From: Candidatus Pelagisphaera phototrophica
GTDB taxonomy: Bacteria > Verrucomicrobiota > Verrucomicrobiia > Opitutales > Opitutaceae
NCBI RefSeq assembly: GCF_014529625.1
Contig: NZ_CP076039.1
Coordinates: 3,782,001-3,846,000, forward strand
Reading direction: 5' to 3'
DNA length: 64,000 nt
Part shown: piece by piece, positions 7,350-22,470 of the stretch
Numbering within the stretch: position 1 is the first letter of the stretch
Layout: each line of letters begins with the position of its first letter
The notes under the pieces: model-generated
Database searches by the model: none
What the model was told of the DNA's origin: nothing
The model's input: the letters and a program-made list of their open reading frames with translations, nothing else
Translations under genes and position numbers: made by a program

Positions 7350-7607
7350 TTAGTCTTTCTTGGCCTGACGTTCGTCGAACTTCGACGCAAGCATCAGGTT
7401 TGAAATGTGAATGGACCCTTCGCGTTCCGCGATTTGTCCGTCGGGATTTTCTTCCGACTTCTTGAGATGGCGCTTGATCATCATAAGACCTTCAACAACT
7501 GCTCTATTTTTCGTGGTGCGAAGTTCTAGGATTTTGCCGCGCTTACCCTTTTCCTTGCCTGAAAGGATAACGACTTCGTCGCCCTGTTTTACATGTGTCT
7601 TAGCCAT
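7350..7607 (-). CDS. rplX: 50S ribosomal protein L24
   Basis: The product is 85 aa, on the short side but complete. L24 initiates 50S assembly. The KOW motif is at the N-terminus (VKQGDEVVILSGKEKGKRGK), followed by VVEGLMMIKRHLKKSEENPD and IHISNLMLASKF. Only 2 bp separate it from the rplN stop codon, so the two genes are probably translationally coupled. Confidence 0.96.
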   Translation of the reverse strand: MAKTHVKQGDEVVILSGKEKGKRGKILELRTTKNRAVVEGLMMIKRHLKKSEENPDGQIAEREGSIHISNLMLASKFDERQAKKD

Positions 7608-7609
7608 GA

Positions 7610-7975
7610 TTAAAGTACCTCCGGAGCTAGCGAGACAATCTTCATGAATTGTTTCGTGCGAAGTTCGCGAGCAACTGGCCCAAAAATGCGGGTGCCACGC
7701 GGGTTTCCATTGTTGTCGAGTATTACGATCGCATTGCTGTCGAAACGGAGGTAGCTACCGTCACGACGGCGAATTGGAGCCTTTGTCCGCACTACAACAG
7801 CTTTTACAACCGTACCTTTCTTAACAGACGAGTCTACGCTTGCCTCTTTGATATTGACGACGATGACGTCACCAATGTCGGCGGTCTTCTTGCGCTGACC
7901 CAAGCGGCGAATCATATGGGCCCGTTTGGCGCCTGTATTGTCTGCAATCTGCAGTTCTGAACGTAATTGAATCAT
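7610..7975 (-). CDS. rplN: 50S ribosomal protein L14
   Basis: The product is 121 aa, the standard length. L14 lies at the subunit interface. Characteristic segments are [51 protein letters not shown] and [14 protein letters not shown]. It is followed by rplX after 2 bp and preceded by rpsQ after 14 bp. Confidence 0.98.
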
Positions 7976-7989
7976 TTTTTTTCGCTCCT

Positions 7990-8307
7990 TTATTTAGCAG
8001 AAGCTGGTTCGATTTTCTCTACTTCCTCTTCTTTCAAGCCTCCTGCTACAGGTGCCCGATCTATAACCCGAACTAAACGCCAGCGTTTTAGGCGGCTAAT
8101 TGGACGTGTCTCCATAATTTCAACACGATCACCAAGACCAGCATTGTTGCTTTCGTCATGAACGTGAACAACTGTTTTTCGATTGATCACCTTGCGATAA
8201 CGAGGATGAGGAATCTTGTAACTGTAGGTAACCTTGATCGACTTGTCCCCGGAGGTTGAAGTCACGAACCCGATTAGGCTTTTTCTGCTATTGCGAGAGT
8301 TTTCCAT
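7990..8307 (-). CDS. rpsQ: 30S ribosomal protein S17
   Basis: The product is 105 aa, slightly longer than the roughly 85 aa of E. coli S17 because of a C-terminal extension ([17 protein letters not shown]). The OB-fold core is clear: [61 protein letters not shown]17 binds the 5' domain of 16S rRNA early in assembly. Confidence 0.96.
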
Positions 8308-8993: not shown

Positions 8994-9620
8994 TTATTGT
9001 TCGTCCTTTTTGAAAACCCAGCACTTAACGCCAATAATGCCGTATACTGTTCTGGCTTCTGATGTACCGTAATCAATTTCTTCGCGCAATGTATGGAGAG
9101 GTACACTACCTTGGCGCTGAACTTCGGTACGAGCGATGTCCGCACCACCGAGTCTTCCACCGACCTGTACCTTAATGCCCTCCGCGCCTAGACTCATAGC
9201 GATTTGAACCGCCTTCTTCATAGCGCGCCTGAAGGAGATACGGCGTTCCAGCTGAAGAGCAACATTGTCCGCGACCAGTTTTGCTTCGAGCTCGGGCTTC
9301 TTTACCTCCTGAATATCGAGAAGGATCTCCCTACCCGTCATCACAGCTAGCTCTTCCTTTATCTTTTCGATCTCTTGGCCCTTCCGGCCGATAACGATCC
9401 CTGGACGAGCAGTGAAAATCTTAACACGGACCCGGGAAGACGCCCGTTCAATGAAGATACGAGGTACGGAAGCGTACTTCAGCTTCTCCATCAATTTCTC
9501 ACGAATGATGTAGTCCTCGTGTAGTGTCTTCGCGAATTCGTTCTTGGGTGCAAACCAACGTGATTGCCAGTTGCGATTAACTGCGAGACGAAAACCTATC
9601 GGATTTGTTTTTTGACCCAT
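8994..9620 (-). CDS. rpsC: 30S ribosomal protein S3
   Basis: The product is 208 aa. S3 lines the mRNA entry channel. It begins [20 protein letters not shown], has the KH domain with the GxxG loop ([20 protein letters not shown]) and the C-terminal motif [20 protein letters not shown]. It lacks the extra C-terminal tail of proteobacterial S3 and ends soon after the core fold ([16 protein letters not shown]). Confidence 0.97.
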
Positions 9621-9630
9621 ATGTCTGAAA

Positions 9631-9969
9631 TTAGTTAGCGTTGTCGGTTAGTACGATGCGGATATGCGACATGCGCTTCTTTCGTTTGGCAACCCCACCT
9701 CGAGCAGCTGCTTTGAAACGTTTAAGAGCCGGACCCATTTCGATGATCGCCTTATCAACGGTCAGATTGTCCGCAGACAAGTCGTGGTTGTTTTCAGCGT
9801 TCGCAATTGCTGATTGCAATGTCTTTGAAATCAGTGCCGCAGACTTTCGTGGAATAAACTTCAGCAGGTCGAGAGCTGCCGTGGCCTGTTTGCCGCGAAT
9901 GGCACGAGCTACCTCGTTCACCTTTTTCGGTGACATGCGTGCGTATTTGGTTAGCGCTTGTACTTCCAT
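9631..9969 (-). CDS. rplV: 50S ribosomal protein L22
   Basis: The product is 112 aa, the family norm, starting [21 protein letters not shown]22 lines the nascent-peptide tunnel; the extended beta hairpin region ([20 protein letters not shown]) is intact. The frame is open for 61 codons upstream, but those overlap rpsS and have no L22 similarity. A strong Shine-Dalgarno (GGGAGGT) ends 7 bases before the ATG at 9969 and decides the start. Confidence 0.97.
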
Positions 9970-9986
9970 TATATTACCTCCCTTGA

Positions 9987-10250
9987 TTATTTGCTGCCAC
10001 CGTGAGCCTTGAACATGCAGGACTGGGAGAACTCGCCGAGCTTGTGTCCCACCATGTTTTCCGTGACGTAGACGGGGATGAATGCCTTCCCGTTGTGTAC
10101 AGCAAAATTTAGACCCACGAAATCGGGTGTGATTGTAGAACGACGTGACCAAGTCTGAATTGGTTTGCGGTCATCCTTTCCCTTGGCGACCATGACCTTG
10201 TCTTCGAGGCTTGGGTCGATGAAATATCCTTTTTTAGCTGAACGAGCCAT
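9987..10250 (-). CDS. rpsS: 30S ribosomal protein S19
   Basis: The product is 87 aa, normal for S19 of the 30S head. It begins [20 protein letters not shown] and contains [40 protein letters not shown] and [17 protein letters not shown], the full signature. It follows rplB after 20 bp. Confidence 0.98.
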
Positions 10251-10270
10251 TATCTATATCGTAATAAAAA

Positions 10271-11122
10271 TTATCGTTTGAACTTGCGACCATTGCGACG
10301 GACCAAGATGAGACTGTTACTTTCTTTAGACTTGCGACGAGTGGGAAAACCCTTCGCTAACTGACCCCAAGGAGAAACGAGCATCTGGCGACCACCGCCA
10401 CCTTTACTCTTTGCTTCACCCCCACCATTGGGATGGTCCACCGGATTCATAACAACACCCCGAACCCGAGGACGCTTGCCCTTCCAACGGTTACGTCCCG
10501 CCTTTCCAATGACTACCTTTGAGTGCTCGGCGTTACTGACAGATCCAATAGTCGCGAGGCACTTCTTGCTCACCAAACGAATTTCACCCGAGGGCATTTT
10601 CAATTGAGCGTGACTCCCTTCAATATTAATCAGTTCGAGAGAATTGCCTGCTGAACGAGCGAGTTGGGCCCCTTTACCAGGAAGTAGTTCTACAGCGTGA
10701 AGGCGAGTCGAGGGAGGAATGAATTCCAGTGGCATGGTATTGCCAATATCAAAGCTGATCATATTCTGCGACGAAAAAATCTTGTCACCCACCTTCAATC
10801 CCTCAGGAGCTATGATGTATCGCTTTTCACCATCCGCATAGGCGACCAGAGCAATGTGAGACGTCCGGCCTGGATCGTATTCGATCGCCTGTACATTTGC
10901 GGGGATGTCGAATTTGTTGCGTCGAAAGTCCACGATTCTACGCAATCGCTTATGCCCACCTCCACGGCGGCGTGATGTCACGCGTCCGTAGCAATTGCGT
11001 CCCGCAGACTTGCTGTAAGAAGTAGTAAGCTTTTTCTCCGGACGCTTCTGCGTAATGTCTCTCTTCTGGAGCTCCGCAAAACGCAGAGACGGAGTGGTTG
11101 GTCTAAAACTTATAATAGCCAT
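10271..11122 (-). CDS. rplB: 50S ribosomal protein L2
   Basis: The product is 283 aa, slightly longer than the usual 275. L2 is needed for subunit association and peptidyl-transferase activity. The conserved active-region motif VRGVVMNPVDHPNGGGEAKS and the histidine within it are present, as are RKTGRNCYGRVTSRRRGGGH-like N-terminal residues (here SAGRNCYGRVTSRRRGGGHK) and the C-terminal PTRRKSKESNSLILVRRNGR. Confidence 0.98.
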   Translation of the reverse strand: MAIISFRPTTPSLRFAELQKRDITQKRPEKKLTTSYSKSAGRNCYGRVTSRRRGGGHKRLRRIVDFRRNKFDIPANVQAIEYDPGRTSHIALVAYADGEKRYIIAPEGLKVGDKIFSSQNMISFDIGNTMPLEFIPPSTRLHAVELLPGKGAQLARSAGNSLELINIEGSHAQLKMPSGEIRLVSKKCLATIGSVSNAEHSKVVIGKAGRNRWKGKRPRVRGVVMNPVDHPNGGGEAKSKGGGGRQMLVSPWGQLAKGFPTRRKSKESNSLILVRRNGRKFKR

Positions 11123-15810: not shown

Positions 15811-16185
15811 TTATGCCTTAGGGCGCTTGACGCCGTACTTTGACCGGCTGCGTCGACGCTTCTCCACACCCATTGCATCCAAGGTACCGCGAACGATGTG
15901 ATAACGCACACCCGGTAAGTCCTTCACACGGCCGCCCCGTACAAGAACGATGCTGTGCTCCTGAAGGCTGTGTCCTTCATCAGGAATGTAGGCGATGACT
16001 TCGATGCCATTGGTCAAGCGTACTTTCGCCACTTTTCGGATGGCCGAATTTGGCTTTTTCGGCGTACGCGTCATGACTTGTACGCAAACGCCGCGTCTAA
16101 ACGGATTTGAGTCAAGCGCGGGTGACTTAGACTTGGTCCGGGCCACCTTGCGGCCTTTTCTGACAAGTTGATTAATGGTTGGCAT
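15811..16185 (-). CDS. rpsL: 30S ribosomal protein S12
   Basis: The product is 124 aa, normal for S12 at the decoding centre. It starts [20 protein letters not shown]. The streptomycin-relevant lysines are wild type by sequence: [20 protein letters not shown] and the second loop [16 protein letters not shown]. It is the first gene of the str operon here and is divergent from the nucleosidase/radical-SAM pair at 16415. Confidence 0.98.
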
Positions 16186-16240: not shown

Positions 16241-16414
16241 GTATTTTCTGCCGAAAAACGAGTAAAAAGCATACCCTGCCAAAATTTGGCCTGATATGCT
16301 TGAAAATCGGGCGAGCCTCTTGAGGGAAACTCCATAGTTTATCAGCTTCGATAAAATTGAGAGTTTTGCGTATTGCCGATTCGTCCCAATGACATCAAGG
16401 TAAAAACGAAGAAT

Positions 16415-17236
16415 ATGGAACAATTCGTGCTCGCCCTTCATTGCGAAGCAAAACCGATCATCCAGCACTACCGCATGAAACTATGCGGCAAGCACGGTCA
16501 GGCCCAATTTTTCGAGGGCGAAACAGCTCGGCTGGCTGTGACTGGAGTTGGCTCGTTATCGAGCACGATCGCAACAACCGCAATGGGAGAAAGATTCCCT
16601 TCAAATGATTCAACCTGGCTGAATATCGGCATTTGCGGCGGGGAAGACTTAGCGATTGGCGAGGCATTCATCGGAAACAAGATCACTTCTGACTATTCAC
16701 GCGACGTATTCTATCCTCAACTTGTGGGAAAATCCCCTTGGCCTGGGATCGAAATCAAAACCCTAAATGCCCCATCGAACCGCTATGAAACCAATCGGGT
16801 GTTCGACATGGAGGCATTCGGCTTTTACACCGCCGCTCTAACATTCGCCTCTTCCGAACGCGTTCAGTGTATCAAGATCATTTCGGACAACTCTGATTCT
16901 CCCACAGGCGCTCATTTCAACAAGACGGAAATCTCAAGTCTGATTGCTTCACAGATCCCAAAAATCGATAGTTTTCTGGAGAATACAGGCTTTTCGAAAG
17001 CTGAATACTACATGAAAGGCTGGGCGAATGATCTGCTGACTACGGCGAAAACCCGCTATTCCTTTACGGAAACAGAGAGGCACCAATTATCCAGTCGGAT
17101 ACGCCAGTTGGATGCTCTCCTTGACCTAGAGGAAGGCCTATGCCTGCAGCTCCTCTTGAACAGCCCAAAGAAAGGCAAATTCCTCCAACAACTTCAGTTC
17201 AAAATCGACCAAGTGTCTCCACAGCGAGTCTGCTAA
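16415..17236 (+). CDS. MTA/SAH nucleosidase-like protein (nucleoside phosphorylase superfamily)
   Basis: The product is 273 aa from the ATG at 16415. The first roughly 170 residues resemble 5'-methylthioadenosine/S-adenosylhomocysteine nucleosidases. Glu11 sits in an N-terminal ALHCEAKP segment, Glu123 in the DMEAFGFY motif and Asp148 in KIISDNSD, matching the glutamate, second glutamate and aspartate of the MTAN active site. The remaining roughly 100 residues are a helical C-terminal extension not seen in ordinary MTAN. The stop codon overlaps the start of the radical SAM gene (TAATG, 17234-17238), so the two are coupled. Inference: the enzyme may cleave the 5'-deoxyadenosine or related nucleosides made by its partner. 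Substrate is unproven. Confidence 0.75.
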   Translation: MEQFVLALHCEAKPIIQHYRMKLCGKHGQAQFFEGETARLAVTGVGSLSSTIATTAMGERFPSNDSTWLNIGICGGEDLAIGEAFIGNKITSDYSRDVFYPQLVGKSPWPGIEIKTLNAPSNRYETNRVFDMEAFGFYTAALTFASSERVQCIKIISDNSDSPTGAHFNKTEISSLIASQIPKIDSFLENTGFSKAEYYMKGWANDLLTTAKTRYSFTETERHQLSSRIRQLDALLDLEEGLCLQLLLNSPKKGKFLQQLQFKIDQVSPQRVC

Positions 17237-18225
17237 TGTTTGATCGCATATACATAGAAGAAGCGGTTCAAAACCATCCGCGAACGCTGGAGATTCTAAA
17301 GCGCTACGATCGTGCCGAACGAATCGATTGTGGACGATACAGCGAGGTCTTTAATCCTAAGAGACAGAGCTTCCGTCTCCAAAAACAGAATCCGGCTCTC
17401 ATACTAGCGGCAAAGCACGGAAACCGAGTTCTCCCTACTCCACCCGAATACGGCCTTGGAGCTGACCAGCATTACTATTTTTCGCACATGCTTAATTGCC
17501 TGTACGATTGCCGCTACTGCTTCCTCCAAGGAATGTACCAATCGGCTAACTATGTTCTTTTCGTAAACTATGAGGATTTCGTAAATGAGATCAAAGCCAC
17601 TCTCGACGAGGATCCTTCCAAGCAGTGCTTCTTTTTTAGTGGATACGATTGTGACAGTCTGGCCATGGACAAGGTCACTGGTTTCACAAACGTTTTCCTT
17701 CCGTTCTTTGCCCAACACAAAAATGCTTGGCTAGAACTCCGCACAAAAAGCGTTAACATTTCTTCCCTTCTGGAACGAGAACCTATTCCAAATGTAGTAG
17801 CTGCTTACAGTTTAAACCCTGAACCAGTAGCGGATTCACTCGAACACAGAGCTCCCCTAATCAAGACACGTCTATCTGCGCTGAAAAAACTAGCTGAAGC
17901 AGGATGGGAAATTGGACTTCGTTTTGATCCGCTCATTCACTTCGAAAACGGTATTCAAAAATATAGCCAATTCATCGATCAGGTTTTCGATTCAGTTCCT
18001 CCCGTATACATCCACTCCGTAACGCTTGGAACCTTTCGTTCCCCCAAAAACGTCCTTAAAAAGATGGAGTCGCTGTATCCGAAAGAACCTTTGTTCATGG
18101 GCAATCTTCAACTAAAGAATGGAGCCATTGGCTACGAGGAAGCGATCGAACAAGCTCTATTCAGCAGCGTGGAAGAAAAGATTCTTCAATACATCCCCCC
18201 ATTTAAGTACTTTCCCTGCCAGTAG
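17236..18225 (+). CDS. Spore photoproduct lyase-family radical SAM protein
   Basis: The product is 329 aa from the ATG at 17236. The radical SAM cluster motif is C88-x3-C92-x2-C95 in NCLYDCRYCFLQG, the spacing of the superfamily. Upstream residues TPPEYGLGADQHYYFSHMLN match the lead-in of spore photoproduct lyase. Cys139, in SGYDCDSLAMDKVTG, falls where SPL has its hydrogen-donor cysteine. SPL reverses the thymine dimer found in spore DNA; no sporulation genes are seen here, so the substrate in this organism is unknown. It is translationally coupled to the nucleosidase-like gene and the pair is inserted between rpoC and rpsL on the opposite strand. Family assignment is firm, function is not. 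Confidence 0.82.
   Translation: MFDRIYIEEAVQNHPRTLEILKRYDRAERIDCGRYSEVFNPKRQSFRLQKQNPALILAAKHGNRVLPTPPEYGLGADQHYYFSHMLNCLYDCRYCFLQGMYQSANYVLFVNYEDFVNEIKATLDEDPSKQCFFFSGYDCDSLAMDKVTGFTNVFLPFFAQHKNAWLELRTKSVNISSLLEREPIPNVVAAYSLNPEPVADSLEHRAPLIKTRLSALKKLAEAGWEIGLRFDPLIHFENGIQKYSQFIDQVFDSVPPVYIHSVTLGTFRSPKNVLKKMESLYPKEPLFMGNLQLKNGAIGYEEAIEQALFSSVEEKILQYIPPFKYFPCQ

Positions 18226-18321: not shown

Positions 18322-22470
<4,149 letters not shown>

Follow-up and report, generated by a model that had tools for sequence, protein, structure and literature searches.

A nucleosidase-like gene coupled to a spore photoproduct lyase-like gene points to a previously undescribed joint reaction

One pairing of a radical S-adenosylmethionine (SAM) enzyme with a nucleosidase is that of MqnE and MqnB in menaquinone synthesis, where futalosine hydrolase removes the base; in this route and the next, the two are paired because the 5′-deoxyadenosyl group ends up in the product. 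Another, as an excerpt of PMC12583986 describes it, belongs to the hopanoid route: HpnH adds the 5′-deoxyadenosyl radical to diploptene, HpnG, a putative phosphorylase, removes adenine, and the set also comprises a sugar epimerase (HpnA) and a glycosyltransferase (HpnB) of uncertain roles. Here we analyse a 64,000-nucleotide stretch of the Candidatus Pelagisphaera phototrophica genome (NZ_CP076039.1, positions 3,782,001 to 3,846,000; hereafter the window; the genome, G000, is a single 4.09 Mb contig), in which a gene for a nucleosidase-like protein with the fold of 5′-methylthioadenosine nucleosidase (MTAN), here called NUC, overlaps one for a radical SAM enzyme resembling spore photoproduct lyase (SPL, SplB). 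Judged by sequence comparison, NUC and the SPL-like enzyme are a conserved unit common to Gammaproteobacteria, Verrucomicrobiota and a Fusobacterium, and the evidence points to a joint, previously undescribed reaction rather than spore-type DNA repair. That the system is undescribed had been proposed earlier; we found no account of such a unit in the open-access literature, subscription papers not being covered. The SplB-like photolyases of SOS neighbourhoods (ImuB-C, DUF4130) resemble it in that the surroundings of their SPL-like radical SAM gene are conserved; they have other partners, and the excerpt of PMC3765255 that describes them mentions no nucleosidase. The genes in question are:

16415..17236, + strand: NUC gene, an open reading frame (ORF) for an MTAN-fold nucleosidase-like protein of 273 aa
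17236..18225, + strand: SPL-like radical SAM gene, an ORF of 329 aa with its ATG within the TAATG overlap
17234..17238, + strand: TAATG stop/start overlap, read directly from the sequence, with the geometry of translational coupling

An earlier note on this DNA, made from the sequence alone, took the two genes for one functional unit and held that rare co-occurrence elsewhere would speak against it; a search for conserved adjacency found strong conservation instead. In a sample of 288 genomes of the phylum, a strong SPL match occurs in five and NUC in exactly those five, four further SPL matches of the nine having been dropped as weak (E 1e-9 to 1e-12, no NUC). The genes are adjacent in four and 2.9 kb apart in G046. 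Within the window's family, the pair is present in 2 of the 22 genomes listed, both of the window's genus. A gammaproteobacterial sample comprised 274 genomes drawn around G288, the genome of locus L021, which was itself included because it bears the pair. With thresholds of E<=1e-10 for SPL-like proteins and E<=1e-38 for strong NUC, 48 of these genomes have an SPL-like protein: 38 have full-length family members (one of them, G561, represented only by a piece at a contig edge) and 10, counted in the 48 alone, have weaker matches, 27–30% identical. Strong NUC is found in 44 of the 48 (36/38 full-length, 8/10 weaker) and in none of the 226 others (Fisher p 1e-46); since the genomes are related and many are drafts, the Fisher p-values given here overstate independence. 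Five weak NUC matches (E 3e-11 to 9e-9; G298, G369, G394, G511, G552) were dropped, canonical MTANs lying at the same places.

Against that caveat stand the patchy distribution of the family and the correlated distances given below. By their coordinates, 32 of the 38 full-length gammaproteobacterial carriers have NUC upstream of SPL at a distance of no more than about 65 bp; it lies elsewhere or on another contig in G540, G470 (where NUC has an in-frame TAG), G444 and G367, and G342 and G350 have no NUC match. Among 24 separate-gene pairs with inferred starts, the window's included, the spacing is −20 to +32 bp in 23 and 2874 bp in the last. Pairwise distances of NUC and SPL are correlated over 25 pairs (Mantel r 0.72, reached by none of 2000 permutations), and in the Fusobacterium vincentii record L061 a single fusion protein of 623 aa comprises both. 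That an ordinary nucleosidase and an unrelated radical SAM gene became neighbours by chance has next to no probability, given the Fisher test, this fusion and the co-divergence.

Some peculiarities of individual loci may be recorded here. G046, the sole split pair among the five phylum genomes, has an ORF on the opposite strand between SPL and NUC (L031, G046:C1:1149000-1168000; ORF at 9140-10741) that looks by eye like an ABC-F-type ATPase. The L061 record (NZ_CP084075.1) is filed as a plasmid; at 2.1 Mb, its size suggests a chromosome. Viral carriage was considered and rejected, as a search of viral contigs with profile A2 (the SPL-like alignment of 30 sequences, without L023 and L078, both restored in the 32-row counts below) gave just three distant matches at 20–30% identity. 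Two fecal scaffolds labelled 'Bacteriophage sp.', L062 and L063 (MT835514.1, MT835770.1), carry the module; their neighbouring genes look bacterial by eye.

The SPL-like protein matches PF20903 (3.9e-21, 75.7 bits, above the gathering cut-off of 27), and a sequence search of the PDB gave five significant matches, every one an SPL. Its AlphaFold2 model (pLDDT 84.6) is closest to SPL 4fhg (E 5.5e-20, TM 0.82, 18% identity), a structure presumably from G. thermodenitrificans; the next fold matches, pyruvate formate-lyase-activating enzyme and MqnE, are far behind. It thus shares with SplB the full-length fold, the N-terminal domain, CX3CX2C and the YC of the motif. Against this stand the low identity, a score of 88 bits where the TIGR04070 equivalog cut-off demands 400, and a tyrosine, Tyr137, in place of the hydrogen-donor cysteine. 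In addition, splB of B. velezensis adjoins a SplA-domain gene and no nucleosidase. The positions concerned are:

17497..17520, + strand: CX3CX2C, Cys88/Cys92/Cys95, predicted by homology to bind 4Fe-4S
17644..17646, + strand: Tyr137 codon, aligned with the SPL hydrogen-donor cysteine (alignments with solved SPL and B. velezensis SplB)
17650..17652, + strand: Cys139 codon (alignment column count)

The CX3CX2C cluster reported in the earlier note is indeed present, and its cysteines are invariant in the 30 sequences of A2. The same note placed Cys139 at the hydrogen-donor position, which proved mistaken. According to the alignments, the hydrogen-donor cysteine of SPL, which we take to be Cys140 of the solved enzyme (Cys140 mutants are named among the structural matches), is absent and Tyr137 stands in its place, in 31 of 32 rows, with Glu in L023. 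Cys139 lies two residues past that position and aligns with a serine of SPL; its column holds Cys 23 times, Thr five, Ala twice, and Gly and Ser once each. It is common in the clade of gammaproteobacterial and Opitutales sequences, absent from the Fusobacterium fusion (Thr) and absent from others that retain NUC. Four of the aligned type-2 SPL-like proteins, described below, have Gln at the Tyr137 position. Loss of the cysteine is not unique to this family, since a Deinococcus TIGR03886 protein also lacks it; a Granulicella one has it. Two divergent forms deserve mention: the lone SPL-like gene of L023 (JAKPUX010000025.1, 5968-7050) reads GELSDSL where the family has GYDCDSL, and L104 and L107 (G366 and G494, without strong NUC) encode a third SPL-like type of 373 aa beside an ORF that looks by eye like an aldo/keto reductase.

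The PF20903 match and the nearness of the model to SPL would suit a vegetative bacterium repairing thymine dimers of the spore-photoproduct type, with NUC in an accessory role. We consider this very unlikely in view of the tyrosine at the donor position, the TIGR04070 score and the recurrent partners, namely NUC, a short-chain dehydrogenase/reductase (SDR) and a GT2 glycosyltransferase, none of which are repair genes.

The positions that bear on the nature of NUC are:

16445..16447, + strand: Glu11 codon (MTAN Glu12 equivalent), invariant in alignment A1 (25 sequences)
16811..16813, + strand: Glu133 codon (within DMEA; MTAN Glu174 equivalent), invariant in A1; also aligned with PDB MTANs
16886..16888, + strand: Asp158 codon (within SD; MTAN Asp197 equivalent), invariant in A1; also aligned with PDB MTANs
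16916..17233, + strand: C-terminal helical region with the extra domain X, residues 168-273 (AlphaFold2 helices)

A1, the NUC family profile of 25 rows, matched MTANs of the PDB at 9e-11, the Glu/Glu/Asp set aligning with E, MEA and SD of MTAN. The earlier note had named the right kinds of residue and numbered Glu11 correctly; its Glu123 and Asp148 are ten too low. An AlphaFold2 model of NUC from eight sequences (pLDDT 75.6, pTM 0.63, poor at residues 91-112, 116-122 and 162-165) gave a best VIA-align Z of 18.0 against MTAN structures (191 residues aligned, rmsd 3.5) and a Z of 16.5 against the compact CT263 (175/188 aligned), whose catalytic Asp161 is named in PDB titles. Modelling, which the earlier note had looked to for both proteins, thus yields an MTAN fold, an SPL fold and a helical extension. 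By its model, NUC has the MTAN fold, with catalytic Glu11, Glu133 and Asp158, and it probably cuts adenine from nucleosides.

NUC shares this fold and residue set with MTAN (Pfs) and with MqnB/CT263 and differs from both in lying below every curated cut-off shown, in its C-terminal domain X and in a shorter stretch between the glutamates: 122 residues, where those of E. coli MTAN, presumably Glu12 and Glu174, are 162 apart. Lys154, at what we take to be the place of MTAN Arg193, is invariant in A1. A Pfam scan returned no family for NUC (the PF01048 gathering cut-off was not reached), and in an NCBIfam scan fut_nucase (TIGR03664) scored 19.7 bits against a cut-off of 124.7, other nucleosidase models being likewise sub-threshold. 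Futalosine hydrolase was the top named profile for four of five NUC proteins scanned, all far under the cut-off; similarity to HpnG was weak: of three NUC proteins compared, one gave 3.9e-5 and the fusion gave none.

The earlier note had also described a helical extension of roughly 100 aa. The extension is real and helical (AlphaFold2 helices 170-214, 219-235, 238-249 and 253-271), and it is shorter than stated: its first 25 or so residues align with the last helix of MTAN, the aligned model range ending at 191-198, so that the extra part, domain X, comprises some 75–80 aa from near residue 195. In the Fusobacterium fusion the order is NUC-X-SPL. In eight genomes of a second type (type 2), NUC is short (189–232 aa) and lacks X, and the SPL-like protein carries an extra stretch at its N terminus; its gene lies on another contig in seven and, in G524, nearby on the opposite strand. 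Comparison of this stretch with X by hhalign profiles gave a score of 27.5 (P 3.2e-4); the highest of 100 column shuffles scored 15.8, the reversed control 9.7 and other parts of the same proteins 9.4–13.4. As hhalign's own probability is 15–39% depending on mode, the case is good, not conclusive, and suggests that the stretch is related to X. It is probable from these alignments that X was relocated between the two proteins with the NUC-X-SPL order kept.

The genes that recur beside the pair look more like parts of a biosynthetic or modification pathway. The family SDR (>240 bits, Ser/Tyr/Lys intact) is present in 26 of 33 loci scanned, which is not a population rate, since these loci were chosen as carriers; it stands directly after SPL in 18, after type-2 NUC in seven and upstream in one. 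One cluster of GT2 proteins is represented in 12 of 31 loci, and a GT2-looking ORF, judged by its N terminus, lies immediately upstream of type-2 NUC in five of eight. In type-2 genomes, GT2, NUC and SDR form a cluster, and SPL is unlinked to it or, in L089, set on the opposite strand, a layout that suits a metabolic pathway. This could mean that the substrate of NUC is another purine nucleoside or nucleotide, whose sugar or base product would be handled by the SPL-like enzyme and SDR in a salvage or biosynthetic route not linked to 5′-deoxyadenosyl. Invariant Lys154 at the presumed place of the MTAN arginine and the shorter stretch between the glutamates would agree with another substrate; the strict co-occurrence with SPL-like proteins and the fusion argue to the contrary and render this distinctly unlikely.

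Our first choice, held tentatively and well short of conviction, is a two-step unit analogous to HpnH/HpnG or MqnE/MqnB, in which radical adenosyl transfer by the SPL-like enzyme would be followed by removal of adenine by NUC. It is chosen because of the enzyme classes, the absence of the donor cysteine and the way NUC resembles futalosine hydrolase. The co-inheritance of the two genes, their fusion, the constant NUC-X-SPL order, the SDR and GT2 partners, the close spacing of the NUC glutamates and the structural match to CT263 also speak for it. The classes are similar to those of the hopanoid set (radical SAM, nucleosidase/phosphorylase, epimerase, glycosyltransferase) as given in the excerpt of PMC12583986; unlike that set, the radical SAM partner is of the SPL family rather than HpnH, and NUC resembles HpnG weakly. 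The SPL-family enzyme would make the 5′-deoxyadenosyl radical and attach it to an unsaturated acceptor (adenosylation); the coupled NUC would then hydrolyse the N-glycosidic bond, so that adenine leaves and the ribosyl group stays on the product, which SDR (HpnA being, we assume, also SDR-type) and GT2 may process further in many bacteria. Domain X, between the catalytic parts, would probably dock NUC to the SPL-like enzyme or hold a common substrate. We infer the transfer, rather than release, of the adenosyl group, the action of NUC on that product and the role of X. One may go further and imagine a third independent use of radical adenosylation and adenine removal, on an SPL fold: the radical would add to the C5=C6 bond of a pyrimidine, whether free or part of a nucleic acid, NUC would leave a ribosylated base, SDR and GT2 would turn it into a hypermodified nucleoside, and X would pass the substrate between active sites. 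This extension is a long shot.

Several observations weigh against adenosylation followed by adenine removal. The SPL-like enzyme is a full-length homologue of SPL, which abstracts hydrogen and does not add the radical. MTANs cleave free 5′-deoxyadenosine too, so the catalytic residues do not decide function, and the top profile for the NUC part of the Fusobacterium fusion is MTAN, not futalosine hydrolase. The window's genus lacks the family SDR, the best matches being 120 bits (G000) and 128 bits (G286) where three members gave 268–355 in the same search, which also led us to reject an SDR elsewhere in the window genome and take it as absent; neither GT2 nor SDR adjoins the pair in this genus, and the core is therefore NUC with the SPL-like enzyme. 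(The same search found no family SDR in G291, best 120 bits, and put G046, at 154 bits, and G126, at 146, between members and clear non-members.) NUC is missing from G350 and from the genome of L023, both with an SPL-like gene. Finally, two loci have lost the catalytic core and kept the place. One is the following:

L083 (G342), from 665 to 3 bases ahead of the SPL match start: core-less ORF

This ORF of 220 aa stands in NUC's place between GT2 and SPL, without the catalytic motifs; X is still recognised in it (26.9 bits; E 2.2e-8, the set being small), and the nuc profile is not significant. L062 has a 160-aa NUC remnant without the core before SPL, at 7514-7996, with a weak X match (9.6 bits) and a BLASTP match to the fusion at 1e-7. 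Nucleosidase activity is therefore dispensable there, which counts against any model in which it is indispensable and weakens both the adenosylation reading and the clearance of a by-product discussed below.

Since X is retained in core-less forms, it seems no less a part of the SPL-like enzyme than of NUC, the catalysis of which can be lost. The chief role of NUC with X could then be to bind or dock the SPL-like enzyme or its substrate, nucleosidase activity being secondary. The persistence of position and X in L083 and, more weakly, L062, and the X on the SPL side in type-2 proteins, fit such a role; the invariance of Glu11, Glu133 and Asp158 in the 25 intact NUC proteins aligned does not, and we give it little credence.

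The earlier note had proposed a self-clearing unit, which, in amended form, is the main rival to our first choice without being the reading we favour. 5′-Deoxyadenosine is an inhibitory by-product according to an excerpt of PMC8102628. If the SPL-like enzyme no longer regenerated SAM, it would release this compound at each turnover and NUC would destroy the inhibitor, the lyase acting on a lesion or modification of nucleic acid. True SPL regenerates SAM, and clearance is sensible only if the SPL-like enzyme does not. The full-length SPL homology and fold, the lost donor cysteine and the MTAN fold and triad of NUC are all compatible with it; fusion would aid local removal of 5′-deoxyadenosine, and loss of the NUC core would be easier to bear for a helper. 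Moreover, no canonical MTAN is above cut-off in the 31 pair-bearing genomes; among the 274 gammaproteobacteria 22 have one, namely 0 of the 48 with SPL-like proteins and 22 of the 226 others (Fisher p 0.02), which fits clearance a little. On the other side, of the 226 gammaproteobacteria without SPL, 204 lack both strong NUC and a canonical MTAN above cut-off, a result on which NUC was also rejected as a general MTAN substitute. A match of methylthioadenosine phosphorylase (MTAP) type (E<=0.001) is present in 30 of the 31 pair-bearing genomes examined, above cut-off in 14. Clearance also leaves unexplained why GT2 and SDR stay with NUC when SPL is elsewhere. Nor is there a hint of SOS control, which was rejected because no exact CTGTN8ACAG LexA-like box was found in 24 loci over up to 1500 bp ahead of NUC, some contigs offering less. 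On balance, clearance is possible and rather unlikely.

The window genome has further proteins of this kind: a purine nucleoside phosphorylase above cut-off, an MTAP relative below it (153/275 bits), an MTAN relative just under it (64/73.8 bits) that, judged by eye, has a likely signal peptide, and one more phosphorylase-superfamily protein. At G000:C1:3139269-3141068 two genes of the phosphorylase superfamily lie side by side, and one of them has, by eye, a likely signal peptide; another MTAN-like gene with a likely signal peptide lies about 8 kb away.

Known systems were set aside one after another. The futalosine menaquinone pathway was rejected, as MqnE (TIGR03700) is above cut-off in none of 12 pair genomes searched, and so was the hopanoid pathway, the best HpnH (TIGR03470) match in the window genome, the only one searched, reaching 30.2 bits against a cut-off of 225. 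An anti-phage defence system was dismissed, since PADLOC profiles gave no family for either protein at E<=1.

In the window, the pair is flanked by two genes on the opposite strand:

15811-16185, − strand: rpsL, on one side of the pair
18322-22470, − strand: rpoC, on the other side

The coupled pair with its TAATG overlap, set between rpoC and rpsL on the strand opposite to theirs, is thus as the earlier note had described it. A longer reading of NUC would begin with a TTG at 16373. The order rpsL-NUC-SPL-rpoC is kept in four contigs of metagenome-assembled genomes labelled Opitutaceae/Opitutales (L016, L018, L019, L020); another, L017, starts within NUC. Recent foreign DNA was rejected, the pair showing no clear compositional anomaly (GC 0.45–0.48 against 0.47–0.52 in its surroundings). 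Backbone support in the gene trees, which bears on the direction of transfer, is weak.

Named by sequence, the two proteins would pass for a 'spore photoproduct lyase' and for either a member of no family or an unnamed nucleosidase, which would mislead towards DNA repair. A nucleosidase tied to a radical SAM enzyme points instead to an adenine-bearing adduct or to a build-up of 5′-deoxyadenosine, and the conserved pair, the fusion and the relocated X offer a direct experimental handle. Should the adenosylation reading be true, the SPL fold would have passed from a use in repair to one in synthesis, and Gammaproteobacteria, Verrucomicrobiota and a Fusobacterium would have in common a small pathway that awaits its product.

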